Assembly (NCBI GenBank): GCA_016235555.1
Contig: JACRKC010000069.1
Coordinates: 124,001 to 188,000 of the forward strand
Reading direction: 5' to 3'
Length of the DNA: 64,000 bases
Source: Verrucomicrobiota bacterium
Lineage (GTDB): Bacteria; Verrucomicrobiota; Verrucomicrobiia; Opitutales; Opitutaceae
Shown here: piece by piece, positions 10,734 to 46,031 of the stretch
Layout of the letters: every line of letters starts with the position of its first letter
How positions within the stretch are numbered: position 1 is the stretch's first letter
Notes under the pieces: generated by a model
The model's input: the letters and a program-made list of their open reading frames with translations, nothing else
Databases searched by the model: none
Told to the model about the DNA's origin: nothing
Program-made: the position numbers and the translations under genes

Positions 10734-11396
10734 TCAGTGGGCCGCCGGCCGGCAGCCCGGGGCCGGTCGCCACGCCACCGCCACGATCAGCTGGTCCCAA
10801 CTCGCGATTCCACCGTGGATGCGCAGCGGTCTCGTGCCCGGGCGTGATTCGCGAATGGCGACAAATCCGTCGTCGTCCACCCAGTCCACCCGCCAGTCGA
10901 AAAAACCGCCGACCGCCCGCTCGACCGGGTGGACGGCCTTGAACGTCGCTTCTTTGGCGGCGAATCGTTTCGCCGCCACCTGGGCGAACGAGTCGTCCGC
11001 GGGTGCGGCCGTCAATTCGCGCGGCCCCAGCACGTGCGCCGCCATGTCCCGCGTCATCCGCTCCGCGTGCTCCACATCCACCCCCAACGAAACGTGCGCG
11101 TCGCTTCGCGTCACCACCGCTGCGCCCCACCCCGCGCTGTGCGAAAAACTCCCCGTCCATCCGTCCGGCCAGATCGGAAAGCCCTCGGGGTGGTTCGGCA
11201 GCGGTGCGCGGACCACTCCCTGACTCGCGAGATAGGCGCGCGCCATCTCCCGCACCGTGTGGGATTCCCGCGCCCGGCGCCCTGCCTCCCGCTCGCTCCA
11301 ATCCGGAATGCGGGCGAGCAATAATTCGATCCCCCGGACCGCACAGCGGCGCCGCAGATTCTCCAGCGCTCCGGGCGCCGCTTCGAACGGGTTCAT
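10734..11396 (-). CDS. 4'-phosphopantetheinyl transferase (Sfp/EntD type), PfaE role
   Basis: This 220-residue enzyme should transfer phosphopantetheine from CoA to the serine of acyl carrier proteins. The signature motifs are present: 'GVDVEHAERM' (Mg-binding Asp/Glu) and 'KRFAAKEATFKAVH' (the (F/W)xxKE motif), preceded by 'WTGSFSHSAGWGAAVV' with the conserved Ser-His. It is the last gene of the minus-strand pfa operon, starting 10 bases after the PfaC-like stop. It therefore most likely activates the two ACPs of the PfaA homologue and perhaps the three carrier domains of the divergent PKS. The role matches PfaE of other PUFA synthase systems. Confidence 0.9.
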   Translation of the reverse strand: MNPFEAAPGALENLRRRCAVRGIELLLARIPDWSEREAGRRARESHTVREMARAYLASQGVVRAPLPNHPEGFPIWPDGWTGSFSHSAGWGAAVVTRSDAHVSLGVDVEHAERMTRDMAAHVLGPRELTAAPADDSFAQVAAKRFAAKEATFKAVHPVERAVGGFFDWRVDWVDDDGFVAIRESRPGTRPLRIHGGIASWDQLIVAVAWRPAPGCRPAAH

Positions 11397-11406
11397 CGCG
11401 GGCCGG

Positions 11407-14400
11407 CTATCGGCGGGCGCTTTTCTTCCACGCCTCGGACTCGTCGTGGATTCGCCCGTCGCGCCCCCACAGCCAGTCGGCCACCTCGACGTGCCACGCT
11501 TTTTCCTCGCGAGCGACGGCGAGGCCGCCGGGCCCCCGCTGCGGATAATCCAACATCGATCGCGTGGTCTCGCTCGGGGCCGTGAGATGGCGGAGCGCCG
11601 CGATCACCGCGGCCTGGACCTCGGTGATCTGAAACTCGGCGCACAACGCGCGAACCTGCGAGGCGCGGCCCGCCACGCCCGGCAACGGCGTCTCGTCTTC
11701 GTTCGGCGGGGGAATTCGATTGATCGCCTCGACGACCAGATCCGCCGCCTTTGGCCGCGGCAGACCACGCAATTCTCCGGGCAACAGCGGCCGGCCGAGC
11801 GTGAAGTCCTGTTGCCCATGCGCGACGGGAAACGAGATGATTCCCGCCAGCGGCTCGACCGGCAGTCCGCCGCTGTATTTCAGCGGCAGGATCGGCAGGT
11901 CGAGTTCGAGCGCGAGATCCACGATCACCGAACTCATCCGCCTGACGCGGTGCCGGCACGTGACCGCCTGCTCGCCCTCGATGTGCAGGTGCAGCGAATG
12001 CGGCGTGGCCGGCTGTGCCGCCTTGTAGGCCGCCACGAGATCGAGGAAGGCCTGCGGCTGGTCGCGATCGAACAGCAGCTGCGGGTTCACCCGCACGACG
12101 CGGCGCGGATGCCGCCACAGAAAATCCGTCAAACGCCCCATCCACGAATCGCCGTGTTCGGTGCGCGTCACGGTCGTGACCGGCAGTCCTGACCAGCGGG
12201 TGAACACCTCCGTGAAGAGCATGGATTCGACCGCCGTCTGGTGATTGCCGCAAATCAGGAATGGCCGGCGCTTGAGCGGCTCCGTCTCCCCCGGCGCCAT
12301 GAGCCGGAAGCGGCGAACGTAGTCCTGGCGCAGCGCCCGCGACAGGTCGGCGAGGAACTCGCCCGCAAACAACGTCTCGCCCGCCGCGGAACCATAGACG
12401 CCTTGGTCGGCTCCGCTGACGACGAACTGCCCCTCGTCGTTGCGGCAGGTCACCTGCCACTGCTGGAGCGGAAAGGCCGGGCTCGTCGCGCCGCCGGCCT
12501 GATCCACGGTGACATCGGCCGGATGCACCGCGAGCCGGTGCGCCACGTGTTCCTTCATCGCCACCATGCGCGCCAGCCGTTCGGTTGGTCCGCCCGGCGG
12601 CAGCGCGAAAAGTGTCTCGAGCTGGCCCGGCATCCATTGGAAGCGCGCCACCTCCTCCGGCCGGCAAACTGTCACCTCCCCGAGGGCGCGCGTCAGTCTG
12701 GCCGGCAGATACGTTTGCCGGCGCATGAAACTCCGCCGCTCCGCGTAGCTGAACCCGCGAAACGGCCCGGCGTCGAGCGGCGCCAGGCTCATCTGCAAGT
12801 CGCACCACACGCGGCCGCCCACGATAAACTGGACATAGACCCGCGGATCGCCGCCTTCGAGCCGCAGCGGCCGGATCTCGCAACGCACTTCGCCGTGGCG
12901 CGGCGGGTCGCCATAGAAGCGGACCCACGCGACGCCCCGCGGAAGCGCATTCCAGTTTTCGGTGAACCCGGGGAACCAGAGGCCGAGCTCGCTGAGCGGC
13001 ATCGCGTGCGTGCATCCGTCGAGCAACGCCGGATGGATTTCGCCGACCGGCACCGTGCCGCCCGCGGCGTCCATGACGGACGAGGCCCCGGCGCGCGATC
13101 GCCGCAGCTCGCGCAGCACGTGAAACGCCCGGCCATGTGTGGTCTCGCCCGTCTCATAGGGCGAGAGCGCCAGCGGCGCGTCCAGTTCCGCCAGCGCCGC
13201 CGGCGAAGCCGGATAGCCCGGGCTCCACTCCACCACGGTCGTTCCGAGTTCGTCGAAACGGGAAAGCTCGGCCCGGTTCGACTCGCGCCAGGCGGCGAGC
13301 CGGACCTTCGCGCCTCGGCCGGGCGCACGCAGGGGCTCGGACTCCAGCTTCACGCGCACGGCGCCGTCCTCCGGGCACACGAGCCAGCGCGCCGGAGTGA
13401 AGCTGCCCAAGGCCGTCAGACGCAGCCCGCCCGCCGGCTTGGCCACGGCCGCGAGTTCGTCGAGCATCACGGTCAGCGGGATCACGGCGGTCGTGAAACT
13501 CGGACGATGGTCGTCCAGCCACGGATGCGTTGGCCGGCTGAATTCCTTCTCCACCACCGTCTGGCGGACGCGACGGACCTCATCCGGCGGCGTCGAGGGT
13601 GTCCGGCAAATCCGCATCGCCAGCGCCGAAGTCTCGTAGATTTTCTTGCCGTCCACCCACAGGCTGCCACGGGCGCGCGCGAGGAACGCCGCACCGCCCT
13701 CCGGCTCGATCGCGAGCAGCTCCACCAAGGAGTCGATGCGCCCGTTCGTCGGCACGATCTGGCCGCGGTATTTCCACGCCAGCGGCCGGGCCAGCGCCAC
13801 CGGCTCGAACCGGGCCGCCTCGCTCCATTCAGCGCCCACGCCGCGCAGCCGCATCGCGAGCTGGAGCAGCTGCAACAACGCTTCGATCCCGAGCGATCCA
13901 GGCTGCACCGGATCCTGCATGAAGTGCGCCTGGAAAAACCAGTCCGACGCCTGCACCGCTTTGCGCGCCGTGATGATCCCCAGGCCCGCCTCGCCCGCTT
14001 CCGGTTGCCAGCTCGTGATCGCATCGAGCATCAACAGCGGTTCGCCGGCGATCGCGGCTCCCGGCTGCGGCAGTTCGTCAATCACGGCACCGCGCAATCG
14101 CCACCGGTCCTGGTCCGCTCGCGCGAAGGCCTGCGTCTCGAGAGGCGCCGGCGCCAGGCCGGGCTGACTGGCGAACGCCTCACCGGGGAAAAAGCCGAAC
14201 ACCGTGTCCATGCTCGCGAGCCCGCGACCGGCGATGGTGGCCGTCACCCGGAACCCGACGATGATGGTCGAACCCAGCTCCGACCACTGCGTCAACTCGG
14301 AGCGCACCCGCAAGGTCGCCCGGGCCGGCCGGATCTCCTCGTGCCAGGTCAATTTGCCATCGAGATTGCGGAAGAAGACATCCGTCGTTTGCGCGCTCGG

Positions 14401-17400
14401 ATCGCGCGCAAAGCTCGCCAGCCAGCCGCACGGCTGCAGCAACGCCTCCATGAAAACGCAGGCCGGCATGCTGTCGTTGCCGCTGCGCCGGAAAAACCAG
14501 TCGGGGGCGTCGAAATCGAACTCGCTCTCCACCCACATCCCGGGCGCCGGCTGGCCCATGACGCCCTCGCAGGCCACGATGCGCGTCATGAAATGATACG
14601 GCGGCCGCGGCAATCGCGGCAGCAGCAGCGGTCGATCCGCGCTCGCGTAGCCGGGGCCGAAGCCTTCACTCGGCCGGCCCAGCGCACACGCCAGCAACGA
14701 ACGGTGGTCGAAGACGATGCCCGGCCGCGTCGCCCCGACGCCGGCGTGCACGGCGACGATTTCACCGGTGCGCAGCATCTCGGCCAGCGGCCAGTCCTGC
14801 ACCAGCTCCACGCCGAGGTGTTCGCACAGGAACGCCTTCTTGCCATCCACCGAGGCCAGCACCGTCGCGATCAGCCGGGGACACGCGCCATCCACGAATT
14901 CCTCGACGAACACTTCGTAAACGAGCTCGCGCGACGTGGGCACACACTGGCCGCGGCACCGCATCAACGTCGGACGGTGCTGCACCGGCACGAAACGCCA
15001 GCCGTCCCGGCGGACCGTGACGCCCAGCGCCGCGAGGTAAAACGACACCGCCTGCACCGCTCCCTCGAGCATCAACGTGCCGGGCATGCAGGGGTCGTTT
15101 TTGAAATGCCCGGCAAAGAACCAGTGATCCGGCTGGATGCTCTTTTTCGCCCGCAGGTAACCGCGCCCCCACGCGCCACCGGCCGGATCGAAAGTCACGA
15201 CCTCCTCAATGAAACACATCCGCCCCGGCTGGACGCGTGGCGTCCGCGTGTGGGTCTCGGTCACCTCGAAACCCGGGCCAAAGCAGTCCAACGCGCGGCC
15301 TTCGGTGAACGCCGTGACCTCCGCCGCCGTGAACGACCGGCGCGCGGTCACCGCTGGCGGCGCCGCGACCGCACCGGCCGACAACACCGGCGCCGGATCG
15401 TTGGCCGGGTCCCACAGCACGCCTTCGGAATCCGCCAGCTCTTCGTCGCTGAAGAATCCGGCCTGGCCGTGCCGCACGCTGAGGCGCACCTCGCCGTTCA
15501 CCCGGAGATCGGAACGAAAGAAAAACATCCGGATGCCGCCGAGTTGCGCGTGCGAGTCGATCTGGATGTCGAATTTGAGCGTGTCGCCGATCCGCGGCAG
15601 CGGCCCCTTGAGTTCCGCCTCGCAGCCGAGCAGACGATACAGCCGCTCGTTGCGATTGAAGCCGTCGATGCCCATCCACGAGATGAGCAACAAGTCCGCC
15701 TGCCCGGCCTCGATGGTGATGCCGAGCGGCACCACGCCGTCGGCGACATACCACGAGTCGGGCCGCACATCGGTCTCCGTCCAGATCGTGCCCGGGCCCA
15801 GGACGCCCGGCTCCGCCGCGATTCCCGTGACCCGATCGGCCAGCAGCATCGGGGGCATCGGCATGCGCACCTGCCGGCGGAATTCATCCTGTCCGGCAAA
15901 CAGCGGACCGAACAATTCCGAGATTCGCCCCGACGCGAGTCGTTCAAGTTCGGCGCGCGAAAACACCGGTCCCGACGGCGCCAACACCTTGACCTCGGTC
16001 GATACGAGGGGCGCTTCGACCGGCGACCACGCACTCTCCTCCTGGCCGGTGACACTTGCTTCCGGCACGACGAACGCCCCGGCGCCATCGCCGTCCGCGA
16101 CGATGACCGCGCGCAGATACGCTTCGTGCGCCGCGGCCATTTCGCCGAGGAAGATTTCGTGCAGCCGGACCACGCCATCCGGTCCGGCTGGGTCGGCGGC
16201 CACTTCTGCGACCCCGGGGGCCACGGATGCCACCGGTTCTCCTGCGAGGTCCTCGGCGTCTTCGGTATTCCAGCGCAGCGGCGGCGGCCCGGGCATCAAC
16301 TCGGCCGGATCTTTCCGCACGACCGGCCGGAGAATCTCCGCCACCGGTTCGCGATGCGCCCGAAAATTGATCGTCCGCCCATGATCAGCAACCGGCGGCG
16401 GAGGCGGCGGGGCCGCGCCGTCGGTCTCTTCCAGGAAAACCATCGCGATGTCCTCCCGCAAACCGGCCACCTCCACCCGGGCGGCCCGCGGACCGCGCAC
16501 GGGCGGATCCCATGGCATCGCCGCCCCGTCGGGCAGCGGCAACCGGCGCTGCGAGAGCGCGAGCGCCGCCGACACGACTTGCAGCAGCGCATCGGCGGCA
16601 TGCGCATAGCCGCACCGCGCATGGAGCGTCTGCGCCATGGCCGTCCAGTCGGTGGCGCCGAGCACGTTGCGCTCCGGATCGGGTTCGATGAGCGCCCAAA
16701 TCCGGTCGCCGTCGCGTCGCGCGTCCTTCTCCCGCTTGAGCACGAGCAGACACGCCGCATCGCTCACGGCGCCGGCGAACTCCGGCGCGATCTCGGCGAC
16801 GGCCGCGGCATGAACCGGCTCCGCCCCGAGGTCGACGGCGCCCACGAGCGCCGCGTCCAATTCGCCCGATTGCAGCGCACGGACCGCGATCTCCATGGCG
16901 CGCAATCCCGAAAGCTGTTCGCCCGAGATCGACGCACTCGGGCCGGCGAAGTCGTGCTGCCGGTTCAACCGGTTGGTGACGATGTTGGGCATCAGGCCGA
17001 GCGTCGTCGCCGCCACCGGTCCCGCCATGATCCGCTGCCGGATCGGCTCGAGCTCGCGCGCGTCGATCGAAGTCTGCCCCAGTGCGGCCAGAAATTCACC
17101 CAGACGCAGATTGAGCCCGAAACGGCAGGCCTCCGCATCGCAGCCCATGCCCACGAAGACGCCGGTCTGTCTCGTCGGCAGCGGCCCGATCTGCCGCAAG
17201 GCCTGCGCGGCGACTTCGAGCATCACGAGTTGCTGCGGCAGCGCCTGCTCCAGATCCTGCGGCGGGAACACCAGCCCGGCCAGCGGCACCCGCACCTCCT
17301 GCATCCGCGGTTCGAATCGGCTGGCCGCGGATCCGGCCAGCGTCGCCCAGAAGTCGTGCGCGTCGCGGCCATTTCCCGCGCGCACCGCCAGCGCGACGAT

Positions 17401-18783
17401 GGCGCAGCGGCCCGGCCACGAGGCGCTCGGTCGCGGCAGGCGGTTCAGCCGCGAGGCGTGATGCTGCTCGACGATCAGGTGGGCGTTGTTGCCACCGAAG
17501 CCAAACGCATTCACCGCGGCCCGGCGCGGGCCGCGCCCGTCCCACGCCATCGGCGCCAGCGCCGGCCGCAGCCGCGTGCCCGCCAACGCCGGATTCGGTT
17601 CGTCCAGTCCGCGGATCGGCGCGATCGCCCCGTGCTCCATCGATTTCAGGACCTTGATCAAGCCGGCGACACCGGCGACCGGCAGCAAGTGGCCGACATT
17701 CGATTTCAGGGAGCCCAACCACGGACCGCGATCGTGACCAAACAGGTGGCCGCAGCTCTCGAGCTCGACCGCATCACCGACGATCGTGCCTGTCGCATGA
17801 CACTCGATCACCTCGATGTCCGACGGCTTCACATCGGTCCGGGCGTAGGCCGCTTCGAGCGCGCGCACCTGGCCGGCCGCCGCCGGCACCAGCAGCCCGG
17901 CCCCACGTCCGTCGTTCGACAAGCCCACGCCGCGGATCACGCCGAGGATCCTGCTGCCGTCCCTCACCGCGTCCTCCAGGCGTTTCAAGACCACCAGGGC
18001 CGCGCCTTCCGACGGCACCAGTCCGTCGGCCTGGGCATGCAGCGGCCGGCTCTGCCCTGTCGGACTCAGGGCCTGCAAAGTCGTGAAGCCCGCGTGGATC
18101 GTCAGACCGTGCACCCGGGCCACACCGCCCGCGAGCATCACATCGGCCCGGCCATCCGCCAGCCAGTCGCACGCAAACTTGATCGCGTAGAGTGACGAAG
18201 CGCAGGCCGCGTCCACCATGAAGCCACCCCGCGTGAACTGCAGCGCCTCGCACAGGAGTGTCGCCGGCAGGCCGGACATGAACCGGTTCCACAGCGTCGC
18301 GTTGCCCGCCATCCGCGGGGCGCGCTCCGGCCCGAGCAGTTCGCGCGCCCAGGTGGACGCGGCCACGTCGGTCAAACCGTAGGTCGGATACGACAGGTTG
18401 CCGACGATGGCACCGCCGCGCCGGTCTTCATCCGGGTTCATGCCCGCATCGAGCAACGCCGCGCGGCCGACGTGCAGCAGCCACTGGCACAACGGATCCA
18501 GCGCGGCGACCAGCGCCGGGTTGAGCCGGTGCGCCGCCGGATCGAACCGCGCCTCAAAGCCGCGGACGTAGCCGCCGCGGCGCGTCGGAATCCGCTCGGC
18601 CGGCGGCGCCGCCGGATCGGCCCGCATCAGCCGCGCCGGCCGCTCCACGCCCCACGTCGCCGCGTCCGCCTCCGAGAGCAGGTCGCGGCGCTCCAGCACC
18701 GCCTGCCACAGTTCGTCGGGCGAGTGAGCGCCGGGCAACAAGCACGCCTGGCCGACGATCGCGATGGGCCGGAAACGACTCAT
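11407..18783 (-). CDS. PUFA synthase subunit PfaC/Pfa3-like: KS-CLF-DH-DH-DH-acyltransferase
   Basis: The 2458-residue multienzyme begins with a ketosynthase (residues about 5-440; active Cys in 'DAACASSLYA', His in 'ECHATGT' and 'SNVGHLLPVAG'). A chain-length-factor-like KS follows (about 455-690) whose active site reads 'GPSASISGEQ' without Cys. A non-catalytic linker of about 180 residues holds no acyltransferase. Next come two FabA-like double-hotdog dehydratases, with catalytic His in 'FAGHFKNDPCMPG' and 'FQAHFMQDPVQPGS'. A third, PKS-type DH has 'HPWLDDHRPSF', where the usual Gly of HxxxG is Phe. Near 2060-2120 lies a segment resembling a decayed phosphopantetheinyl-transferase domain ('MVAMKEHVAHRL'). 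The C-terminus (about 2150-2370) is a PlsC/AGPAT-like acyltransferase with 'CGNHQTAVES' (HX4E instead of HX4D) and 'HIEGEQ'. This order matches what I recall of myxobacterial Pfa3, except that the AT domain is missing. The gene lies 12 bases downstream of the PfaA-like gene. Confidence 0.92.
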   Translation of the reverse strand: MSRFRPIAIVGQACLLPGAHSPDELWQAVLERRDLLSEADAATWGVERPARLMRADPAAPPAERIPTRRGGYVRGFEARFDPAAHRLNPALVAALDPLCQWLLHVGRAALLDAGMNPDEDRRGGAIVGNLSYPTYGLTDVAASTWARELLGPERAPRMAGNATLWNRFMSGLPATLLCEALQFTRGGFMVDAACASSLYAIKFACDWLADGRADVMLAGGVARVHGLTIHAGFTTLQALSPTGQSRPLHAQADGLVPSEGAALVVLKRLEDAVRDGSRILGVIRGVGLSNDGRGAGLLVPAAAGQVRALEAAYARTDVKPSDIEVIECHATGTIVGDAVELESCGHLFGHDRGPWLGSLKSNVGHLLPVAGVAGLIKVLKSMEHGAIAPIRGLDEPNPALAGTRLRPALAPMAWDGRGPRRAAVNAFGFGGNNAHLIVEQHHASRLNRLPRPSASWPGRCAIVALAVRAGNGRDAHDFWATLAGSAASRFEPRMQEVRVPLAGLVFPPQDLEQALPQQLVMLEVAAQALRQIGPLPTRQTGVFVGMGCDAEACRFGLNLRLGEFLAALGQTSIDARELEPIRQRIMAGPVAATTLGLMPNIVTNRLNRQHDFAGPSASISGEQLSGLRAMEIAVRALQSGELDAALVGAVDLGAEPVHAAAVAEIAPEFAGAVSDAACLLVLKREKDARRDGDRIWALIEPDPERNVLGATDWTAMAQTLHARCGYAHAADALLQVVSAALALSQRRLPLPDGAAMPWDPPVRGPRAARVEVAGLREDIAMVFLEETDGAAPPPPPPVADHGRTINFRAHREPVAEILRPVVRKDPAELMPGPPPLRWNTEDAEDLAGEPVASVAPGVAEVAADPAGPDGVVRLHEIFLGEMAAAHEAYLRAVIVADGDGAGAFVVPEASVTGQEESAWSPVEAPLVSTEVKVLAPSGPVFSRAELERLASGRISELFGPLFAGQDEFRRQVRMPMPPMLLADRVTGIAAEPGVLGPGTIWTETDVRPDSWYVADGVVPLGITIEAGQADLLLISWMGIDGFNRNERLYRLLGCEAELKGPLPRIGDTLKFDIQIDSHAQLGGIRMFFFRSDLRVNGEVRLSVRHGQAGFFSDEELADSEGVLWDPANDPAPVLSAGAVAAPPAVTARRSFTAAEVTAFTEGRALDCFGPGFEVTETHTRTPRVQPGRMCFIEEVVTFDPAGGAWGRGYLRAKKSIQPDHWFFAGHFKNDPCMPGTLMLEGAVQAVSFYLAALGVTVRRDGWRFVPVQHRPTLMRCRGQCVPTSRELVYEVFVEEFVDGACPRLIATVLASVDGKKAFLCEHLGVELVQDWPLAEMLRTGEIVAVHAGVGATRPGIVFDHRSLLACALGRPSEGFGPGYASADRPLLLPRLPRPPYHFMTRIVACEGVMGQPAPGMWVESEFDFDAPDWFFRRSGNDSMPACVFMEALLQPCGWLASFARDPSAQTTDVFFRNLDGKLTWHEEIRPARATLRVRSELTQWSELGSTIIVGFRVTATIAGRGLASMDTVFGFFPGEAFASQPGLAPAPLETQAFARADQDRWRLRGAVIDELPQPGAAIAGEPLLMLDAITSWQPEAGEAGLGIITARKAVQASDWFFQAHFMQDPVQPGSLGIEALLQLLQLAMRLRGVGAEWSEAARFEPVALARPLAWKYRGQIVPTNGRIDSLVELLAIEPEGGAAFLARARGSLWVDGKKIYETSALAMRICRTPSTPPDEVRRVRQTVVEKEFSRPTHPWLDDHRPSFTTAVIPLTVMLDELAAVAKPAGGLRLTALGSFTPARWLVCPEDGAVRVKLESEPLRAPGRGAKVRLAAWRESNRAELSRFDELGTTVVEWSPGYPASPAALAELDAPLALSPYETGETTHGRAFHVLRELRRSRAGASSVMDAAGGTVPVGEIHPALLDGCTHAMPLSELGLWFPGFTENWNALPRGVAWVRFYGDPPRHGEVRCEIRPLRLEGGDPRVYVQFIVGGRVWCDLQMSLAPLDAGPFRGFSYAERRSFMRRQTYLPARLTRALGEVTVCRPEEVARFQWMPGQLETLFALPPGGPTERLARMVAMKEHVAHRLAVHPADVTVDQAGGATSPAFPLQQWQVTCRNDEGQFVVSGADQGVYGSAAGETLFAGEFLADLSRALRQDYVRRFRLMAPGETEPLKRRPFLICGNHQTAVESMLFTEVFTRWSGLPVTTVTRTEHGDSWMGRLTDFLWRHPRRVVRVNPQLLFDRDQPQAFLDLVAAYKAAQPATPHSLHLHIEGEQAVTCRHRVRRMSSVIVDLALELDLPILPLKYSGGLPVEPLAGIISFPVAHGQQDFTLGRPLLPGELRGLPRPKAADLVVEAINRIPPPNEDETPLPGVAGRASQVRALCAEFQITEVQAAVIAALRHLTAPSETTRSMLDYPQRGPGGLAVAREEKAWHVEVADWLWGRDGRIHDESEAWKKSARR

Positions 18784-18795: not shown

Positions 18796-21700
18796 TTAAA
18801 CAAACGAATCGACTTGATAACACTCGACGCCGCGCAGTGAGAACACGGCGCCGCCGTCCGCATCGATGCATTCGACATTCGATTCCGTGCCGGGGCCGGC
18901 GACCTCCTTGCCCTGCAGATGGCAGGCCAGGGTTTCGCCCGGTCGCGCCGGCCGGTGCAACACGAGTTCACCGATTCGCAGCGGCAGCGATTTGCGCCCG
19001 TGCGCCTCCATCGACCAGAGCACGGCCGCCTGCAACGCGCCGTCGAGCACCGCCGGGCCGACCCGCCAGGCGTTCGCCCCGGGCGCCGCGAGCGGATGGT
19101 TTTCCAGCACCAGCGCCGCGCCCGCCTGCGTCCAGCCGCGCAGTTCGCGAATGACCTGGAGATCACGACCGTGGAACAGCCGTCCGCGATAGGCGTCCGC
19201 CGGCTCGAAGCCGAAATCACGCCAGCCATTCGCCTCGGCCGGCCGCTGCGTCGGCGGCACAGCCACCGCAGTATTGGCGTCGGCCAGCGCGGAATAGTGC
19301 AGCTTGCCCGAGTCGGCCTCGACGATGCGCAACCCCACCGTGCCGTCGGCCGCCAGGGCCGCCGTGATCTGCAGCACCCGCCGCTCGGCGGCCGAATTCA
19401 ACACCACGGGTGCGAGCACCTGCACATCGCGCAGTCGTCGGAAGGTCGCCTCCGGTCTCGCCAACGCCGCGGCCTCGAGCAGCCACTCGGTCACCAGCGC
19501 GATCGGCACGACCTGCTTTCCCTTCACCACGTGATCGGACAGGAACGGATAGCGTTCCGCAGTGACGAGCACCTCGACCCGGCGGCCCGGCGCGGCGGCC
19601 GCGGCCAGATCGAGTTGCCCGACCCCGATCACGATTTCGGCGCCGTCTGCCGTCGCGGAGTTCGTGAGTTCGGCGACGAACGCCTCCGCACCCGCGAGGA
19701 GCGGAATGAGGCCGACCCCTTGTTGCTGGAAGTGTTCGCGCAACGCCGGCGTGACCATGCCGCCTTCCCACGGCCCCCAGTTGATCGAGCGCACCACGCA
19801 GCGATCACCGCGGCGCTGGGCCTCCGCGGCGGCCACTTTGTTGAGCACTTCGTTGGCCATCGCGTAGTCGACCTGGCCGCGATTGCCGAAGCGTCCCGCC
19901 ACCGACGAGAACAACACGATCGCTTCGAGCGCATCGTCCGCCGTCGCTGCGAGCAGCGCCTGCAACGACTTCACCTTCGTATCGAACACCCGCGCAAACT
20001 CCTCCGGGGTTTTCTCGGCAATCAACTTGTCCGCGAGGACGCCGGCCCCGTGCACGAGGGCGTGGATGCCGCCGTGGCTCTGCCGCACCCGCGCGAGCAC
20101 GGCATTGACCGCCACGGCGTCGGTGGCGTCGCAGGCCACATACTCCGCCTCGCTGCCGGCCGAGCGCAGCCGCGCCAGCGTCGCGGAAATTTCCCGTCGC
20201 GCCAGAATTTCGCGCGCCGCCGCCGCGGCCTCGCGCGGAGTCGGGTGGCGACCCGCCTGCTGCTCGCGCGTCAGCAGCACCCGGCGCAGATCGGCTTCGT
20301 GCGTGACGCCGCGACACTCGGCCGGTTCGTCGCCGAGTTCGGTGCGGCCCAGGAGGACGAATCGCGGATGCCGCGCTTTCGCCAGGGCGATCAACGCCTC
20401 CGCGGTGACCCCGCGTGCCCCGCCCGTCGCGATTACGACCGAACGCGAGGTCAGCCGCGCCGGGGCCGCCACCAAGGCGGAGGCCTCCGTCGTGATCAGG
20501 CGATGGCGGCTGCCGTCCGCCGGCAGACCCACCTCGCGTTCATCGCCCCCAAAGAGCAACTCCGCTGCGAGCCGGCGGCCGAGCTCTTGCGCCGACAGGG
20601 TGCCGCACTCGAGGTCGATGGCGCGGACGACGGCCTGCGGCCATTCCTTCCCCGCCGTTTTGGCCAGCCCCGCCAGCCCGCCATACCACGCGCGCCCGCC
20701 GGGCCCGGGGGCCATTCCGAATCGCCCGCCGGTATCCTGCACCGTCACGAGCAACCCGCCGGACTGTGCCATCGATGGCGCCACGCTGCGCGCCGCCAGA
20801 AAAGCGGCCTGGAGCTTCCCGCGGGCCGCCGCCAAGGCGGGATCGGGATGCAGTCCGTGCATCAGGATGACTCCGTCACAATCCGTCGGAATCTCGGTCA
20901 CCACCTCCGCGCGAACCCGCTGGGAGTGGAGCGCGTCGCACAGCGCCCGGGCGATCCCGCGGCCGTCCTCGGTGATCACGAGGCGCCGGGCGCGATGGAG
21001 TATCGGTGCCGAAAAAATCGTGGGCGCCGCCGGCTCGCACGTGACGCGATAACGCCGCAACCCCTCCACGCGCGCCGGGGCCGGCCCGGCGGCCGCAGCC
21101 GTCGCCGCAGAGACGTCCGGCGCCGGCAATGCAGTGGCGTCGCTGCCCCCGCCGAGTTGTTGGGCGAGATGATCGGAGATCGCCTGCAGCGTCTCCAAAC
21201 CGGCCATGATTTTCGCGTCGACCGGCGGAAGGCCCGGCAGCTTTTTCTGCACCGCGGCAAGAATTTCGACGCGCTTGATCGAATCGATGCCGAGATCGCC
21301 CTCGAGCTGCATGTGCGGCTCCAACATGTCGCGCGGATAGCCCGTCTTGTCGGCGACGGTCTCCAAAATCACCGTCATGATCCCCGCCGCCGACGGCGCT
21401 GACGCAGCGGTGGGCGCCGCCGGCACCGTCACCCGGGTCGCGGCGGCAGACGCTGGCGGCGCCTTCGCCACCGAGGCGCCCAACTGGTCGCGCAGGTAAT
21501 TCGAGATGGCCTCCAGGGTCTGGAGCGAGCCCATCACCTTGGCGTCGACCGTCGGCAGCCCCGGCAGTTTTTTCTGCACGGCCGCGAGGATTTCGACGCG
21601 CTTGATTGAATCGATGCCGAGGTCGCCTTCGAGCTGCATCGCCGGCTCCAACATGTCGCGGGGATAGCCCGTCTTTTCCGCGACCGTCTGCAAGACGGTC

Positions 21701-24700: not shown

Positions 24701-25005
24701 CGCGCGAGCAGGAGCGCCAGGAGCTGGGCAATGTCCGTCGCCGGCAGCAGGTGCGGCGGCAGCCCGTAGGCCACCGGATCGAACGGCACGTCGGACAAAA
24801 AGGCGCCGTGCCGCGAATACGTCTTCACCGGCGCCTTCGGGTCGGCATCGAAATAGTCTTCGACGAGCCAGTGCGTCGCCGGCACGTCCTGCATGCAATC
24901 GCGCCCGCTCAGAATGAGGCGCCAGAATTCGTCGAGGTTGCGGGCTTGCGGAAAAAACGCACTGAGGCCGGTGATGGCCACGGGGCGAAAGGGAGCAGGA
25001 GACAT
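18796..25005 (-). CDS. PUFA synthase subunit PfaA/Pfa2-like: KS-MAT-ACP-ACP-KR-DH
   Basis: The 2069-residue iterative synthase starts with a ketosynthase (residues about 5-455; Cys in 'DAACASSLAAL', His in 'VEGHGTGTAAGD' and 'SQIGHTKGAAG'). A malonyl-CoA:ACP transacylase follows (about 565-850, 'FPGQGSQSVGM', active Ser in 'GGHSLGEVV' near 674). After a Pro/Ala-rich linker come two almost identical ACPs carrying 'LGIDSIKRVEI' (Ser near 1131 and 1241), a motif characteristic of PUFA synthases. Next are a ketoreductase ('VVIATGGARGVTAEA', Ser and Tyr in 'VLFSSVAGRFG' and 'VDYAMANE') and a PKS-type dehydratase with 'SDHVVKGKQVVP' and 'LDGALQAA'. The MAT is the only intact acyltransferase domain of its kind in the cluster. 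Two ACPs is few compared with the five or more typical of marine PUFA synthases. It starts 23 bases after the PfaD-like stop. Confidence 0.93.
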   Translation of the reverse strand: MSPAPFRPVAITGLSAFFPQARNLDEFWRLILSGRDCMQDVPATHWLVEDYFDADPKAPVKTYSRHGAFLSDVPFDPVAYGLPPHLLPATDIAQLLALLLARQVLEDCSGGQFARLKLERTSVILGVASATELISSMSGLLSRPMWIEGMRQAGIPEPQVQEAVRRITALFPEWNENTFPGCLGNVVAGRVANRFNLGGTNCVTDAACASSLAALHRGLSELQLGTSDRVITGGVDALNTIFMYMCFSKTPAMSASGHCRPFAASADGTMMGEGGGMLALRLLEDAERDGDPIYAVIRGLGSSSDGRSKSVYAPRPEGQTLALERCYAQAGYSPATVRLVEGHGTGTAAGDLCEASALNEVFRAADRERQQWCALGSIKSQIGHTKGAAGTAGLLKAALALHHRVLPPTANVDAPHPELGFAGSPLYLNTQVRPWIQAASEARRAAVSSFGFGGTNFHVTLEEYRGAHAAPRVRALGVEVLLASAPTAGELARKIGAWLKLGAGDLPRVAEQIRADFDPSAPWRVAIIASSADEVARKAGRVQTELTGHAGGGAGGALAEGIFLARGSAAVDPASVVFLFPGQGSQSVGMAAELPMNFAPALAVWEEIEELALLGRERLCDLVYPPPATNDAEKQRQEEKLRTTEVAQPALATVSLAYLSVLDAAGVKPALVGGHSLGEVVALQAAGALTRADCVRVCRRRGELMAAQAQAAGQGSAMTAVRAPREKIAELLRDFPACVLANHNSPEQCVVAGPSAELDRLEAKLGQADVSFRRLAVAAAFHSAAVAGAAAPFAEFLAEVKISALARPVFNNGSAAPYQGRPDEIRAMLARQLAEPVQFVDQLRAMQAAGGRIFVEVGAGTVLSALVRQTLGDSVTAIPLNPGGQSADAGLLQALARLAVAGVRLDWNFLRSGYRALLPEPKLSAAALPVGGYNLGRPYPPRDGQRTPPVPVPAPAPLAPAPAARVMLPPTSPSVMSDHPTATSTGAAPARSPGTTEAITRAHEAYLRALSDAHRAFLAAMSGQAVPPSAASTTMPVAKPALPPAPPPVPVGAQAVPAPPREPARSKPVAELPAARAVAVATPPPPVTEEKVGVVDGASVIETVLQTVAEKTGYPRDMLEPAMQLEGDLGIDSIKRVEILAAVQKKLPGLPTVDAKVMGSLQTLEAISNYLRDQLGASVAKAPPASAAATRVTVPAAPTAASAPSAAGIMTVILETVADKTGYPRDMLEPHMQLEGDLGIDSIKRVEILAAVQKKLPGLPPVDAKIMAGLETLQAISDHLAQQLGGGSDATALPAPDVSAATAAAAGPAPARVEGLRRYRVTCEPAAPTIFSAPILHRARRLVITEDGRGIARALCDALHSQRVRAEVVTEIPTDCDGVILMHGLHPDPALAAARGKLQAAFLAARSVAPSMAQSGGLLVTVQDTGGRFGMAPGPGGRAWYGGLAGLAKTAGKEWPQAVVRAIDLECGTLSAQELGRRLAAELLFGGDEREVGLPADGSRHRLITTEASALVAAPARLTSRSVVIATGGARGVTAEALIALAKARHPRFVLLGRTELGDEPAECRGVTHEADLRRVLLTREQQAGRHPTPREAAAAAREILARREISATLARLRSAGSEAEYVACDATDAVAVNAVLARVRQSHGGIHALVHGAGVLADKLIAEKTPEEFARVFDTKVKSLQALLAATADDALEAIVLFSSVAGRFGNRGQVDYAMANEVLNKVAAAEAQRRGDRCVVRSINWGPWEGGMVTPALREHFQQQGVGLIPLLAGAEAFVAELTNSATADGAEIVIGVGQLDLAAAAAPGRRVEVLVTAERYPFLSDHVVKGKQVVPIALVTEWLLEAAALARPEATFRRLRDVQVLAPVVLNSAAERRVLQITAALAADGTVGLRIVEADSGKLHYSALADANTAVAVPPTQRPAEANGWRDFGFEPADAYRGRLFHGRDLQVIRELRGWTQAGAALVLENHPLAAPGANAWRVGPAVLDGALQAAVLWSMEAHGRKSLPLRIGELVLHRPARPGETLACHLQGKEVAGPGTESNVECIDADGGAVFSLRGVECYQVDSFV

Positions 25006-29011: not shown

Positions 29012-41307
<12,296 letters not shown>

Positions 41308-41311
<4 letters not shown>

Positions 41312-42039
41312 GCGATCCCGCTTCCGCCCACGCCGTGCCCGCCTCGGGCTGGACGCAGCGCCTCGCCGCGGCGCTCGCCCGCGCGCTCGCGCGCACGGTG
41401 TGCGGACTCGAGGTGCGCGGGCTCGAACACCTGCCGGCCGGCGAGCCGTTCCTGCTCTGCGCCAACCACTCCAGCCACGCGGACACGTTCGCGCTCGCCG
41501 CGGCCACCGGCGCGCACGGCCGCCGCCTGATTTTCCTCGGGGCACGCGATTATTTTTCCCGCTTTGCCCTCCGCACCTGGTTCATCGGGCGCCTGATCAA
41601 CCTCGTGCCATTTGAGCGCGGCTTCGGCCTGGCGGCCGCGAAACACAACCTCAGCCTGCTCGCGGCCTGCCGCGACGCGGGCCGCATCATCGTGCTTTAT
41701 CCCGAGGGGACGCGCTCGACCGACGGCCTCATGCGTGACTTCAAGCCCGGCGTCGGGATGTTCGCCGAGAAACTCCAACTGCGCGTCGTGCCCTGCCACC
41801 TCGCCGGCACGCACGCGATGCTGCCGAAGGGCCGCAATTTTCCGCGGGCGCGCCGGCTGCGGGCGACGTTCGGTCCGCCGCTCGCCGTGCCGCTCGCGCC
41901 CAGCCACGAAACCGGCCCGGCCCGCGCCGCCCGCTACGCCGCCTATGCGGCCGAGCTCCAGTCCCGCGTGACCGCGCTCGCCAGCACGCCGCCCGCGGCG
42001 GACGCCGCCCGGCTCGTCGCCAACCCGCTTTCGCCATGA
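41308..42039 (+). CDS. PlsC-type acyltransferase (glycerolipid, possibly DHAP or G3P acyl transfer)
   Basis: The 243-residue protein shows both core motifs of the PlsC/AGPAT superfamily: 'CANHSSHADT' (HX4D near residue 51) and 'YPEGTRSTDG' (near 131). It has no long N-terminal membrane segment. Its ATG overlaps the TGA of the megasynthase (ATGA), and its own stop overlaps the start of the AGPS gene in the same way. That coupling suggests it works with both. In ether lipid synthesis, AGPS needs acyl-DHAP as substrate, so this protein may acylate DHAP. This role is inferred from position; sn-2 acylation of a lysophospholipid is equally possible. Confidence 0.88.
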
Positions 42040-43748
42040 TGAAATTTTCCGGCTGGGGCGATCCCGCGAAGGCCTACGATCTTTCCACGCGCCCCTACCT
42101 CTGGGATTTCGTCCGCTCGCAGATCGGGCTCGAAAACAAACTCGATCCACCGGGACCGCGCCCCGAGGACATCGCCGTGCCGGAGCCGCGCCGCGACGAC
42201 GCACTCCTCGCGCAACTCACCCACGCGCTCGGCGCCGAGAAAATCTGCACCGACGCCCCGACGCGGCTTCTCCACGCCTACGGCAAGAGCTACCGCGACC
42301 TCCTGCGCGCCCGCGCCGGCCACGTGCCGCGCCCACCCGACCTCGTGCTGTTTCCCACCAGCCGCGCCGACCTCGAGGCCATTCTCGCGGCCGCCGTCGA
42401 GCATCGCGCGCAGGTCGTGCCCTTCGGCGGCGGCACCAACATCTGCGGCGGCGTCGAGCCCGACCCCTCCCGGCCGGGTGTCGCCCTCACCGTGAGCCTG
42501 CGCCGCATGAACCGCCTGCTCGCGCTCGACCCGGTGGCGCGCACCGCACGCATCGAGGCCGGTGCGCTCGGGCCGGAGCTCGAGGCCGCGCTCAACGCCC
42601 AGGGTTTTTCGCTCGGCCATTTTCCCGACTCGTTCGAGTTCTCCACGCTCGGCGGCTGGCTCGCGACGCGCTCCGCCGGCATGCAGTCCGACGCCTACGG
42701 CAAGATCGAGAACATGGTCGTGTCGCTCACCCTGTGCACGCCGCGCGGCACGCTCGTGACGGCGCGCGTCCCGCGCTCGTCCACCGGCCCCGACCTCGCG
42801 CAGCTCGCGGTCGGCTCCGAAGGCACGCTCGGGATCATCGCCGAGGCCGAGATGCGCATTCACCCTGTCGGCATGCGCGAGCATCGCGGACTGCTCGTGC
42901 CCGGCTTCGAGCGCGGCATCGCACTCGCCCGCGCCCTCGTGCAGGGCGGCGCGCTCCCGACGACGACCCGCATCTCCAATCCGCAGGAAACCGCGCTCAG
43001 CTTCGCCACGAAATCGCCCGCGCAGGGCCTCGCCGCCACCACCGCCAAGGTGTTCAAGAGCTACCTGCGCCACGTGAAAAAATTCCCGCTCGACGACGCC
43101 TGCCTGATGATCGTCGGGTTCGAGGCGGCGTCCGCCGGCGAACTCGCGGCGCAGCGGCGCGCCACGCTGCGCGTGTGCCGCGAATTCGGCGCCGTCGATC
43201 TCGGCACCGGCGTCGGCGCGAAGTGGTTCGCGGGCCGCTACGATTATCCCTACCTGCGCGACACCGTGATGGATCGCGGCGGCATGGCCGATGTGACCGA
43301 GACGTCCGCGACCTGGGACGTGCTGCCCGGCCTCTATCGCGACGTGAAGGAGCGCGTGCATGCCCACCTGCGCCGCGGCGAGTTTCCCGGCTACGTGGGC
43401 TGCCATCTCTCGCACAGTTATCCCGACGGCGCGTGCTTGTATTTCACGTTCGCCGCTGCGCGCGAACGCGGCCGCGAGCTCGCGCAATATCTGGAGACGA
43501 AACAGCTCATCTTCGAAATCCTGCTCCGCCACGGCGCGACGCTCTCCCATCACCACGCCGTCGGCTACGAACTGCTCCCGTGGATGCCGCGCCACCTCGG
43601 CGCGACCGGCGTCGAACTCCTGCGCGGTGCGAAGCACGCCGTCGATCCGCTCAATCTCTGCAATCCCGGCAAACTCATCCCCGGCGACACCCCTGCGCTG
43701 GCGGACTACTGGCCGCCGGCGTTGGTGAACCGCCGGCCCCCGGCCTGA
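42036..43748 (+). CDS. Alkyldihydroxyacetonephosphate synthase (AGPS-like, ether lipid synthesis)
   Basis: The 570-residue flavoenzyme should replace the acyl chain of acyl-DHAP with a fatty alcohol, forming the ether bond of alkyl-glycerolipids. The match to animal AGPS covers the whole protein: 'MMKFSGWGDP' at the N-terminus, the FAD-binding loop 'VVPFGGGTNICGG', 'PDSFEFSTLGGWLATRSAGM', 'STGPD', 'GSEGTLGIIAEA', and near residue 505 the 'LSHHHAVG' motif, whose His triad is essential in the mammalian enzyme. The related D-lactate/glycolate oxidases lack this N-terminal 'WNGWG'-like block and HHH triad. The gene overlaps the acyltransferase upstream (ATGA). It is the key clue that the cluster makes ether lipids, because the thioester reductase just upstream can provide the needed alcohol or its aldehyde precursor. 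No alkyl-DHAP reductase is seen here. Confidence 0.88.
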   Translation: MMKFSGWGDPAKAYDLSTRPYLWDFVRSQIGLENKLDPPGPRPEDIAVPEPRRDDALLAQLTHALGAEKICTDAPTRLLHAYGKSYRDLLRARAGHVPRPPDLVLFPTSRADLEAILAAAVEHRAQVVPFGGGTNICGGVEPDPSRPGVALTVSLRRMNRLLALDPVARTARIEAGALGPELEAALNAQGFSLGHFPDSFEFSTLGGWLATRSAGMQSDAYGKIENMVVSLTLCTPRGTLVTARVPRSSTGPDLAQLAVGSEGTLGIIAEAEMRIHPVGMREHRGLLVPGFERGIALARALVQGGALPTTTRISNPQETALSFATKSPAQGLAATTAKVFKSYLRHVKKFPLDDACLMIVGFEAASAGELAAQRRATLRVCREFGAVDLGTGVGAKWFAGRYDYPYLRDTVMDRGGMADVTETSATWDVLPGLYRDVKERVHAHLRRGEFPGYVGCHLSHSYPDGACLYFTFAAARERGRELAQYLETKQLIFEILLRHGATLSHHHAVGYELLPWMPRHLGATGVELLRGAKHAVDPLNLCNPGKLIPGDTPALADYWPPALVNRRPPA

Positions 43749-43758
43749 GTCTCCCCCG

Positions 43759-44958
43759 ATGTCTGCCGCGCTCCTCGACCTGCTCGACCACTCGCTCACC
43801 ACCGCCCGCGTGCGGTTCGCCCTGCCCGACGGCACTCGCGACGTCGGGCGCCGCGCCGACGCCCCGGCCAACGCCGAACCAGACTTCATCATCCGCGTCA
43901 CCGACCACTATTTCTTCGGACGCATCGCGGCCTCCGGTTCGCTCGGTTTCGCCGAGAGTTACATGGACGGCGGCTGGACGTTGGAGCGCGGCACGCTCGA
44001 GGATTTTCTCTCGGCCCTGCTGGTCTGCCGCTTCCGTGACGCGATCCATGCGCGTCCTTCCGTCGGCCTGCGGCTCGCGCTCCTGCGCCTCCGCCACACG
44101 CTGCTCGGCACGCGCACCAACGTCCGCTCGCACTACGACATCGGCGACGACCTCTACGCTTGTTTCCTGGACGAGACGCGCGGCTACACCTGCGGCTACC
44201 AACTCGCGCCCGAGGATGACGGCCGCACCCTGCAGGAAAACAAATACGAGCGCATCTGCCGCAAACTGCACCTCGCGCGCGGCCACACCCTCCTCGACCT
44301 CGGCTGCGGCTACGGCGGATTTCTCCTGCACGCCGCCCGCCACTATGGCGCGCGCGGCACCGGCATCACCAACAGCGTGGATCACGCCGCCTTCGCCGAA
44401 CGGCGCGCGCGCGAACTCGGCGTCGCGGAACTCGTCACGATCCGCTGCGGCGATTTCCGCGAGATCGCCGGCACCTACGACCGCATCGCCTCGATCGGGA
44501 TGTTCGAGCACATCACACCGGCGGAGCGGCGGGATTTCTTCGCGCTCTACCGGCGGCTGATGCGCCCGGGCGGCTTCGGACTTTTCCACGCCATCGGCTG
44601 CGTGACGGCGACCAACCGCTCCGATCCCTTCATCCAGAAATACATTTTCCCCGGCTCCCGCCAGACGCCGCTCAGCACCATCGTCGCCGGTTTCGAACGC
44701 GAATCCCTCGCCGTGCTCGACGTCGAAAACATGACGCGGCACTACCACCCCACCACGCGCCGCTGGCTCGAGGCCTACCGCGCCAACCGCCATACGCTCG
44801 ACCGCACGCGCTACGACGAGCGCTTTCAGCGCATGTGGGAACTCTATCTCGCCGGCTGCGTCGCGGCCACCGTGTATTCCGAAGGCGCGCTCTGGCAGAT
44901 CGTCGTCACCAGCGAGTATCGCCGCCCGCTGCCGCTGTATCGCGTCGGCCGCACCTGA
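43759..44958 (+). CDS. Cyclopropane-fatty-acyl-phospholipid synthase family methyltransferase
   Basis: The 399-residue protein is a SAM-dependent methyltransferase of the CFA synthase family, which modifies double bonds of membrane lipid acyl chains. 'VRSHYDIGDDLYACFLD', 'TCGYQL', the SAM loop 'LLDLGCGYGGF' (residue about 180), 'GMFEHI' and 'FIQKYIFPG' match the family in order, and the N-terminal lipid-binding domain is present. It starts 10 bases after the AGPS stop, so it belongs to the same operon. Its likely targets are unsaturated chains of the lipid made by the cluster. Methylation without ring closure, as in some relatives, is also possible. Confidence 0.88.
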   Translation: MSAALLDLLDHSLTTARVRFALPDGTRDVGRRADAPANAEPDFIIRVTDHYFFGRIAASGSLGFAESYMDGGWTLERGTLEDFLSALLVCRFRDAIHARPSVGLRLALLRLRHTLLGTRTNVRSHYDIGDDLYACFLDETRGYTCGYQLAPEDDGRTLQENKYERICRKLHLARGHTLLDLGCGYGGFLLHAARHYGARGTGITNSVDHAAFAERRARELGVAELVTIRCGDFREIAGTYDRIASIGMFEHITPAERRDFFALYRRLMRPGGFGLFHAIGCVTATNRSDPFIQKYIFPGSRQTPLSTIVAGFERESLAVLDVENMTRHYHPTTRRWLEAYRANRHTLDRTRYDERFQRMWELYLAGCVAATVYSEGALWQIVVTSEYRRPLPLYRVGRT

Positions 44959-45030: not shown

Positions 45031-45171
45031 GGGTGTAACTCAAACTGAGGTCAATTTTCGAGGGCCTCAGCCGTAGCGGCGGTCTATGATCGCCGTCGTT
45101 GCGCGAAGGGTATTCGTTCGGCGGTCATAGACCGCCGCTACAAATCGCTGACCTCGGTTTGAGTCACACCC
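45031..45171. repeat. Palindromic MITE-like repeat, family B copy 1
   Basis: This element of about 141 bp is bounded by near-perfect terminal inverted repeats (gggtgtaactcaaactga / matching ggtttgagtcacaccc). It contains an inner hairpin built from tagcggcggtctatgat and tcatagaccgccgcta. The second copy is at 61782-61922. Flanking bases tccgccgcc and cccgccgca agree at 7 of 9 positions, perhaps a decayed target duplication. It separates the methyltransferase gene from the next acyltransferase gene. Confidence 0.85.
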
Positions 45172-45248
45172 CCCGCCGCAGGCGGATCATGCGCCCGCTT
45201 GACGAGCGCGCGCCGGACCGGCTTCGTCGCGGTTGGTCCCCGGTTCTC

Positions 45249-46031
45249 ATGCGTCGCGCGCTTGAAAAGCTCATCATTCCCTTCCGCTTCCTGATCTGCT
45301 GGCTGTATCTCGGCACGATCTCCGCCTGCTTTTTTCCGGTCTTCCTCGTGCTCTGGCCCAGCCGCCGGCGCCGCGTGCTCGCCTCGAATATCTACGGCCA
45401 GTGCACGGGGCGCATGATGATTTTCCTGTCGGGCACCACCCTCACGCCCGGCCTGCGCGCGAAACTCGCGGCGCATCAGCCCGCGATCTTCGTCTCCAAC
45501 CACACCTCCTACCTCGACATCTACTTCGGCATCTGGGTCGCGCCCACCGGCACGCTCGCGACCGCCAAGCGCGAGACCGCCCTCGTGCCGTTCCTCGGCC
45601 AGCTCTACGCCCTCTCCGGCAACATCCTGATCAACCGCGCCAGCAAACGCGACGCCGCCGCGGCCCTGCACGAGACGATCGACCTGATGCAGCGCTTCGG
45701 CACCTCGGTGTGGATCTGGCCCGAAGGCACGCGTTCCGGCGACGGCCGGCTGCTGCCGTTCAAGCGCGGCTTCGCCCACGTCGCGCTGGCCACGCGCCTG
45801 CCCATCGTCCCCGTCGTGGTCAGCGGTGCGCATCGCTGCTGGCCGCGCGGCCGCGCCTACACAACTCCCGCCGACGTGCGCGTGCAGGTGCTCCCACCCG
45901 TTCCTACCACCGATTGGACGCTGGAGAAACTCGATCAGCATGTCGCCGACGTGGAGGCCCGCTTCATCGCCGCCCTGCCGGCCGACCAGCGTCCCGCGCG
46001 CCTGAACAGAACTTCCGAAATCGCGATGTAG
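45249..46031 (+). CDS. PlsC-type 1-acyl(alkyl)glycerol-3-phosphate acyltransferase
   Basis: The protein has an N-terminal membrane helix ('IIPFRFLICWLYLGTISACF'), then 'SNHTSYLD' (HX4D near residue 83) and 'WPEGTRSGDG' (near 157), the standard motifs of 1-acylglycerol-3-phosphate acyltransferases. The ATG at 45249 gives 260 residues, the usual length. An ATG at 45189 would add 20 residues of poor, Arg-rich sequence close to the upstream repeat. It is a different paralogue from the PlsC at 41308 and may add the second chain to the alkyl-glycerophosphate. It is separated from the ether lipid operon by a 290-base gap that contains a family B repeat, so it may or may not be co-transcribed. Confidence 0.85.
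   Translation: MRRALEKLIIPFRFLICWLYLGTISACFFPVFLVLWPSRRRRVLASNIYGQCTGRMMIFLSGTTLTPGLRAKLAAHQPAIFVSNHTSYLDIYFGIWVAPTGTLATAKRETALVPFLGQLYALSGNILINRASKRDAAAALHETIDLMQRFGTSVWIWPEGTRSGDGRLLPFKRGFAHVALATRLPIVPVVVSGAHRCWPRGRAYTTPADVRVQVLPPVPTTDWTLEKLDQHVADVEARFIAALPADQRPARLNRTSEIAM

Follow-up and report, generated by a model that had tools for sequence, protein, structure and literature searches.

The route by which aerobic bacteria form alkyl ethers is mostly unproven. One described route, that of eukaryotes and myxobacteria, uses AGPS, the alkyl-dihydroxyacetone phosphate (alkyl-DHAP) synthase, represented by MXAN_1676 with the fatty acyl reductase (FAR)-GNPAT protein MXAN_1675; excerpts of PMC9131029 report that disrupting the AGPS gene of Myxococcus had a minor effect. 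In the elb operon of Myxococcus and sponge symbionts, ElbD joins FAR, ACS, ACP and AGPAT in one protein (parts of PMC9131029 and PMC9426513), its reductase and transferase steps not having been shown in vitro according to the same parts of PMC9131029. The hgl islands for cyanobacterial heterocyte glycolipids combine a PfaA/PfaC-like synthase with a thioester reductase (TR; sections of PMC11804610), and terrestrial myxobacteria carry polyunsaturated fatty acid (PUFA) synthase genes in the order pfa1-pfa2-pfa3-ppt. Here we analyse a 64,000-nucleotide stretch of an Opitutaceae genome (the window, G000:C34:124001-188000; genome of 8.03 Mb in 140 contigs) in which a plus-strand row with a fatty-acyl-AMP ligase (FAAL)-polyketide synthase (PKS)-TR protein and AGPS faces away from a minus-strand PUFA synthase block. 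No description of a PKS-fed AGPS pathway was recognised among the papers listed by searches of the open-access PMC literature, and the combination of PKS-extended ether-lipid genes with PUFA genes seems undescribed.

The plus-strand row shares with the AGPS route the AGPS active-site residues, a PlsC/GNPAT-like neighbour and a thioester-reducing step, but its alcohol would come from a FAAL-loaded two-module PKS and a TR instead of a plain fatty acyl reductase. Like ElbD, the row brings acyl activation together with a carrier protein, a reduction and an acyl transfer. The original prediction had pointed to a myxobacterial multidomain enzyme of this kind, and the likeness holds for function but not for domains or their order, since the window lacks a FAR-ACS-ACP-AGPAT fusion, keeps PlsC separate, adds PKS modules and has AGPS. 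The pairing of Pfa-like genes with a TR recalls the hgl islands; here, however, the TR sits on a separate modular PKS, its alcohol is proposed to go to AGPS, and no glycosyltransferase is among the annotated genes of 10734-46031, unlike in those islands.

Results and discussion

A predicted ether-lipid cassette fed by a polyketide synthase

All genes of the original prediction are present as open reading frames (ORFs) at the coordinates and on the strands of Table 1, with family scores far above chance, so that its inventory is sound. Both rows look like operons because the minus-strand genes are separated by only 10, 12 and 23 bases, and on the plus strand the ends of the PKS-TR and first PlsC genes overlap the next starts by 4 bases. 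Judging from gene content and conservation, we consider it probable that the plus-strand cassette makes a 1-O-alkyl glycerolipid and that a separate pfa cassette makes a polyunsaturated chain which its own PfaC domain would bring to glycerol phosphate.

The FAAL domain is nearer to fatty-acyl-AMP ligases than to CoA ligases in PDB matches. Its best match is 7r7e (E 6.3e-156), a chain named only 'Polyketide synthase'; FadD23, FadD32, FadD28 and a chain named Fatty Acyl-Adenylate Ligase are among those that follow, and malonyl-CoA synthetase and other CoA ligases rank lower. An ACP adjoins it at residues 603-668 (Pfam), and a second ACP motif lies at residue 1754. The DH (HRLFGRVIVP), ER, TR and both KR motifs are intact in the 4099-residue protein, and its TR scores 324 bits against a TIGR01746 cut-off of 213. 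We found no internal AT domain in either PKS module: Pfam gave no PF00698 match, and residues 1100-2520 contain no GHSxG, the sole candidate motif there, GETPG at residue 2371, being perhaps a decayed trace. Moreover, the stretches between each KS and the next domain match KS-flanking and post-AT linkers, with AT-less PKS structures among the PDB matches shown. Both modules thus appear to be AT-less. The only AT seen at the locus is that of PfaA, and relatives without pfaD still keep the PKS.

In a co-linear PKS, the domain content of each module predicts the chemistry of the chain. Read in this way, FAAL would adenylate a free fatty acid and load it onto the first ACP, module 1 (KS-KR) would add a C2 unit and leave a hydroxyl, and module 2 (KS-DH-ER-KR) would add another C2 unit and remove the new oxygen, with malonyl presumably supplied by an acyltransferase in trans. 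TR would then release the chain as aldehyde or alcohol, so that an n-carbon acid is predicted to give a C(n+4) alcohol with a hydroxyl at C-5. We infer that PlsC-1 makes acyl-DHAP, whose acyl group AGPS would exchange for this alcohol, and that PlsC-2 acylates sn-2. With reduction, PlsC and AGPS in one gene row the AGPS route becomes directly testable, and the predicted chain, with two added C2 units and one hydroxyl at C-5, is distinctive.

The AGPS of the window matches that of Dictyostelium (2uuu) nearly over its full length (E 2.6e-125, query residues 38-548) and that of guinea pig (4bby) at E 1.7e-81. Guinea-pig residues H300, R419, Y578 and H615-617 (numbers counted from the alignment), which we take to be catalytic, are aligned and identical in the window protein, where the corresponding H195, R312, Y469 and H505-507 are invariant among eight sequences. 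Homology and active-site residues therefore predict alkyl-DHAP synthase activity.

Conservation of the AGPS cassette

We searched 252 genomes of the family Opitutaceae (the window's included), 286 genomes of the class, and the loci of the best 80 of 208 AGPS relatives with flanks of up to 10 kb, often shortened by contig ends. An AGPS at E≤1e-60 occurs in 7 of the 252 family genomes. In the class, a match at 1e-10 turns up in 266/286 genomes, for the most part to other FAD oxidases judging by the weak scores; besides the window only seven have a match with E below 1e-140 (43-52% identity), and the best one after these stands at 1.6e-59. The closest relatives among the best 80 are proteins of Opitutaceae metagenome-assembled genomes (MAGs) at 80, 75 and 73% identity. 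Of the 80 loci, 55 have a PlsC match on the strand of AGPS and no more than 4 kb from it, and six have a TR match so placed (L058, L068 and L114, three of these, at only 24-30% identity).

In three Opitutaceae relatives, L052, L053 and L054 (G366, G492 and G491 of the family list, matched by contig and coordinates), a TR ends just upstream of PlsC-AGPS. These are also the three closest MAGs named above, and as all three are listed in the window's family, the host is taken to be one of the Opitutaceae. L052 reads TR end-PlsC-AGPS-shortened CMAS-PlsC and continues into CAAX-protein and RND pump genes like those of the window, L053 reads KR-TR-PlsC-SDR-AGPS and L054 KS-DH-ER-KR-TR-PlsC-SDR-AGPS (CMAS, cyclopropane-fatty-acid-synthase-type methyltransferase; RND, resistance-nodulation-division; SDR, short-chain dehydrogenase/reductase). 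The SDR between PlsC and AGPS fits alkyl-DHAP reduction, as would be expected. CMAS is not treated as core because L052 has it only as two fragments, 92 and 83 residues long and not in the same frame. In the L053 and L054 genomes another contig ends in a FAAL-KS1 (66-73% identity), and we infer that these halves and the TR halves form one gene. In G286 the contig ends upstream of the TR, and that genome has no FAAL-KS1 match at 1e-60; G015 has a stand-alone TR upstream of PlsC-AGPS.

A further case is the acidobacterium Candidatus Sulfopaludibacter (L066), in which a FAAL-ACP-KS-DH-ER-KR-ACP protein without an AT match adjoins PlsC-AGPS. At E 1e-120, a search of 200 genomes of the order found this AGPS in that genome alone. 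The AGPS tree, with 81 rows (79 loci, L127 of the 80 being left out, with the window and G015), places the window, L052, L053 and L054 in one clade with support 100 and L066 in the other half, across a split of 98; L066 lies next to a long branch, so that its exact place is unsure. The FAAL-PKS beside AGPS has thus probably arisen or been assembled more than once, to judge from this tree, and such repeated assembly favours a working link between the two. The original interpretation is thus borne out in part. Sequence and neighbourhood support its ether glycerolipid with a PKS-extended, reductively released chain: TR-PlsC-AGPS recurs in three Opitutaceae, and FAAL-PKS recurs beside PlsC-AGPS in the acidobacterium, though there without a TR.

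Several observations weigh against an ether-lipid product made in the proposed way. FAAL lies within the flanks of only 1/80 AGPS loci and a strong PKS KS within those of only 2/80 (many of these flanks end at contig ends). Two of the seven family AGPS genomes, G448 and G515, whose AGPS are 38 and 33% identical to the window's, gave neither a PlsC nor a TR match beside that gene. No SDR adjoins AGPS in the window, and the L066 PKS has no TR match, for which reason its chain may instead be handed to PlsC as acyl. On the pfa side, the acyltransferase-like motif at the end of PfaC closes with Glu, not Asp, and its domain has no Pfam match. Finally, excerpts of PMC11868695 state that Pontiella isolates showed no ether lipids though the genus has elbD homologues; genes alone therefore do not prove an ether-lipid product.

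Separately, we observed a widespread row of an HMG-CoA-reductase (HMGR)-family gene, PlsC and AGPS, in many cases with an SDR and a second PlsC (L067, L070, L074-L079, L064, L071, L072, L090, L102 and others). At 25 of the 80 AGPS loci an HMGR-like match is found on the strand of AGPS and no more than 4 kb away. Two members that were scanned score 340-346 bits with PF00368, and one is under the NADPH-HMGR equivalog cut-off (297 vs 442). The enzyme encoded by this gene may take over the role of TR and supply AGPS by a four-electron reduction of thioester to alcohol.

The PUFA synthase block and its relation to the cassette

PfaD, PfaA (KS-AT-ACPs-KR-DH), PfaC (KS-CLF-DH) and the phosphopantetheinyl transferase (PPTase) stand in one operon, a myxobacterial-type PUFA synthase gene set from which a PUFA product is predicted. 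PfaD scores 606 bits with TIGR02814 (cut-off 449); a 1182-residue ORF considered for it was rejected as over-long, its N-terminal half being antisense to the acyl-CoA ligase. The block resembles terrestrial myxobacterial pfa1-pfa2-pfa3-ppt in its order pfaD-pfaA-pfaC-PPTase, its probable C-terminal AGPAT-like domain and the tandem ACPs of PfaA, and also, by parts of PMC8436480 and PMC6731297, in the several FabA-type domains of PfaC, of which Pfam finds three stretches in 13684-15933. Its PKS-type DH resembles DH4 of Minicystis (excerpt of PMC6731297), and no AT was found in PfaC, as sections of PMC8436480 report for Sorangium; the difference lies in the host, here one of the Opitutaceae. The nearest pfa relatives (66-78%) are in G382, G348, G378 and G377.

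The acyl-CoA ligase is placed in the pfa cassette only tentatively, because a relative (64%) stands beside pfaD in G378 (L189) but none was found on the pfa contigs of G348 and G382 (L183, L184), both of which have room upstream. In one further Opitutaceae genome, G321 (L193, 1-20000), Pfa genes share a strand with distant TR (29%) and FAAL-like (26%) matches, possibly an hgl-like island.

The C-terminus of PfaC is probably a PlsC-like glycerolipid acyltransferase domain, by profile and weakly by fold. Region 11410-12537 aligns with PlsC by hhalign (probability 87.7, E 3.4e-6), the PlsC motif NHxxxxD is replaced in it by NHQTA[VI]E (NHQTAVE at residue 2180), and it is conserved at 64-69% in two pfa-bearing Opitutaceae. 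Its AlphaFold model, from 4 sequences, has a mean pLDDT of only 63. Plain Foldseek gave nothing at E≤0.001, its top rows being unrelated folds, and a PDB sequence search gave nothing useful. VIA-align placed GPAT, PlsC and PatA in its first 13 rows at Z 5.3-6.7 (below 8), interspersed at similar Z with the unrelated folds of Csm6, a UGT and a methyltransferase. The polyunsaturated chain would pass through this domain to glycerol phosphate and not to FAAL.

If the two blocks formed one pathway, their genes should be found together, and the original prediction had proposed such a pathway, with co-occurrence in other genomes as its check. PfaD over its cut-off occurs in 12 of the 252 family genomes, and only the window's genome has both pfaD and AGPS (1/252); given 12 and 7 genomes, the chance of at least one overlap is 0.29. 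The count of 12 overstates the pfa operons, since the PfaD of G343, G355, G361 and G391 reaches only 47% and the stretch read in these four shows no pfa operon of the window's type, and it leaves out G377, whose truncated PfaD scores just under the threshold. In the class, pfaD exceeds the cut-off in 5/286 genomes, of which only the window's has a close AGPS. No pfaD match at 1e-15 was found in any of the nine other AGPS genomes searched (several of them MAGs of unknown completeness), nor anywhere within the 80 AGPS loci. In these genomes the check thus upheld the row TR-PlsC-AGPS, kept in three Opitutaceae, but not the joining of pfaD to it. Because pfaD and AGPS do not travel together, we regard the two blocks as separate cassettes, which may nonetheless cooperate; their adjacency alone was rejected as support for a joint pathway.

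It follows that the linear path of the original prediction, in which a Pfa-made acid would be the FAAL substrate and run through ligase or FAAL, PKS and TR to AGPS, is not supported, and we regard it as improbable. It draws on the divergent adjacency in the window's genome and on a PfaC C-terminal remnant in G288 (L142:17302-18153, C313; 58% identity, two in-frame stops), the sole pfa piece found on its 25-kb contig, which hints that pfa and AGPS once shared a FAAL-PKS-TR-AGPS lineage; pfa may have lived with AGPS in the G288 lineage, although assembly errors could also explain the stops. Against it stand the chance-level overlap and the nine AGPS genomes without pfaD, the aminoethylphosphonate (AEP) genes that in two relatives adjoin FAAL in place of pfa, and the acyltransferase-like domain that PfaC itself bears; the myxobacterial Pfa3 AGPAT domain is presumed to serve an sn-2 route different from FAAL (excerpt of PMC6731297).

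Alternatively, the cassettes might meet on glycerol, the PKS alcohol being placed at sn-1 by AGPS and the PUFA at sn-2 by the PfaC AGPAT domain, which would yield animal-like 1-O-alkyl-2-polyunsaturated lipids. The PlsC-like profile and the GPAT, PlsC and PatA rows agree with this, as does the sn-2 action presumed for the myxobacterial Pfa3 domain (parts of PMC6731297 and PMC8436480). Nevertheless, pfaD and AGPS are not co-conserved, the AGPS cassette already holds a second PlsC, and VIA-align scores unrelated folds alike at Z below 8, so that such a meeting seems unlikely. In any case, Pfa feeding the PKS is less likely than a PKS-made (5-hydroxy) alkyl chain at sn-1 with Pfa, if linked at all, supplying sn-2.

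Aminoethylphosphonate genes in relatives and the fate of the predicted lipid

In two Opitutaceae relatives, AEP pathway genes diverge from FAAL, beginning about 150 bp (G288, L143) or 185 bp (G287, L149) from the start of its ORF. The row (L143:3122-7895 and 688-1863; L149:4394-9064) comprises an NTP transferase, AEP transaminase, phosphoenolpyruvate (PEP) mutase fused to an NTP transferase, and phosphonopyruvate decarboxylase, and in G288 an MFS gene, a CDP-alcohol phosphatidyltransferase and a methyltransferase lie farther along. The G288 proteins exceed NCBIfam equivalog cut-offs (PEP mutase 373 vs 320, decarboxylase 391 vs 313, transaminase 372 vs 361). G286 has an AEP set at 44-59% identity on contig C23, with no FAAL in the 20-47 kb part read. 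G287 and G288 thus carry beside FAAL the kind of genes known from AEP/CMP-phosphonate tailoring (Ppm fused to NTP transferase, PntC), and parts of PMC6697681 describe such fusions and CMP-AEP as presumably serving lipids and glycans. The window's genome differs in having no phosphonopyruvate decarboxylase over the cut-off and only a PF13714-family gene (149 bits) that matches the PEP mutase of the relatives at 36% over 176 residues. From this gene order, the ether lipid of G287 and G288 may carry an AEP head group, as an ether phosphonolipid. With such genes beside the cassette, ether lipids would be linked to phosphonolipids, a class whose formation is little understood (excerpt of PMC6697681).

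FAAL-PKS-TR proteins are typical of specialised metabolism. This, the patchy distribution (7/252 family genomes) and the OEP-MFP-AcrB genes downstream, kept beside AGPS in L052 with synteny at 63-84% identity over the genes of 46271..53046, might suggest that the product of the AGPS cassette is no membrane lipid but a specialised alkylglycerol or lipid-like metabolite that the RND pump secretes. We think this unlikely, as two PlsC enzymes, the phosphonate head-group path of the relatives and the CDP-alcohol phosphatidyltransferase of G288 all suit a polar membrane lipid. More tentatively than our preferred reading of two separate cassettes, and with considerable doubt, we raise the possibility that in Opitutaceae an AT-less FAAL-PKS supplies an animal-type AGPS with a hydroxylated alkyl alcohol, sn-2 being served here by a PUFA synthase and the head group being AEP in the sister genomes, giving 1-O-(5-hydroxyalkyl) ether phospho- or phosphonolipids; to our knowledge these would be like no known bacterial lipid.

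Features of the window and intergenic repeats

Table 1. Features of the two cassettes and their surroundings (window positions)
Feature	Coordinates	Strand	Basis and remarks
4'-Phosphopantetheinyl transferase (pfaE-like)	10734..11396	-	PF17837 44.6 and PF01648 39.7 bits, each above its cut-off
PfaC/Pfa3-like: KS, KS-like chain-length factor (CLF), FabA-type and PKS-type dehydratases, C-terminal PlsC-like (AGPAT) domain	11407..18783	-	Pfam
PfaA/Pfa2-like KS-AT-ACP-ACP-KR-DH	18796..25005	-	Pfam; motifs GHSLG 674, LGIDSI 1129 and 1238
PfaD enoyl reductase	25029..26699	-	TIGR02814; upper end approximate (start codon unsettled)
Long-chain acyl-CoA ligase	26811..28583	+	Pfam
Cassette junction	28584..29011		hairpin repeats, no intact gene recognised
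FAAL-ACP-KS-KR-ACP-KS-DH-ER-KR-ACP-TR	29012..41311	+	4099 aa; Pfam, NCBIfam, PDB match, motifs
PlsC-family acyltransferase 1, proposed DHAP acyltransferase	41308..42039	+	PF01553 72.8 bits
AGPS, alkyl-DHAP synthase	42036..43748	+	PDB matches 2uuu, 4bby; invariant HHH 505-507
CMAS	43759..44958	+	PF02353 224.5 bits
PlsC-family acyltransferase 2, proposed AGPAT	45099..46031	+	PF01553 100 bits; TIGR00530 103.8 vs 102.95; start probably the ATG at 45189
cNMP-binding/CAAX protein, then OEP, HlyD-type and AcrB-type efflux genes	46271..53046	-, then +	Pfam

At the cassette junction, a stretch on the minus strand (28707-28940) looked by eye like the scar of a transporter gene; Pfam gave no match even at E up to 1, and we do not claim it. 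Interspersed repeats able to form hairpins, including GCGGCGGTCTATGA...TCATAGACCGCCGC, lie between genes at 28631-28695, 45076-45139, 46233 and 61815-61878 and are possibly REP-like elements.

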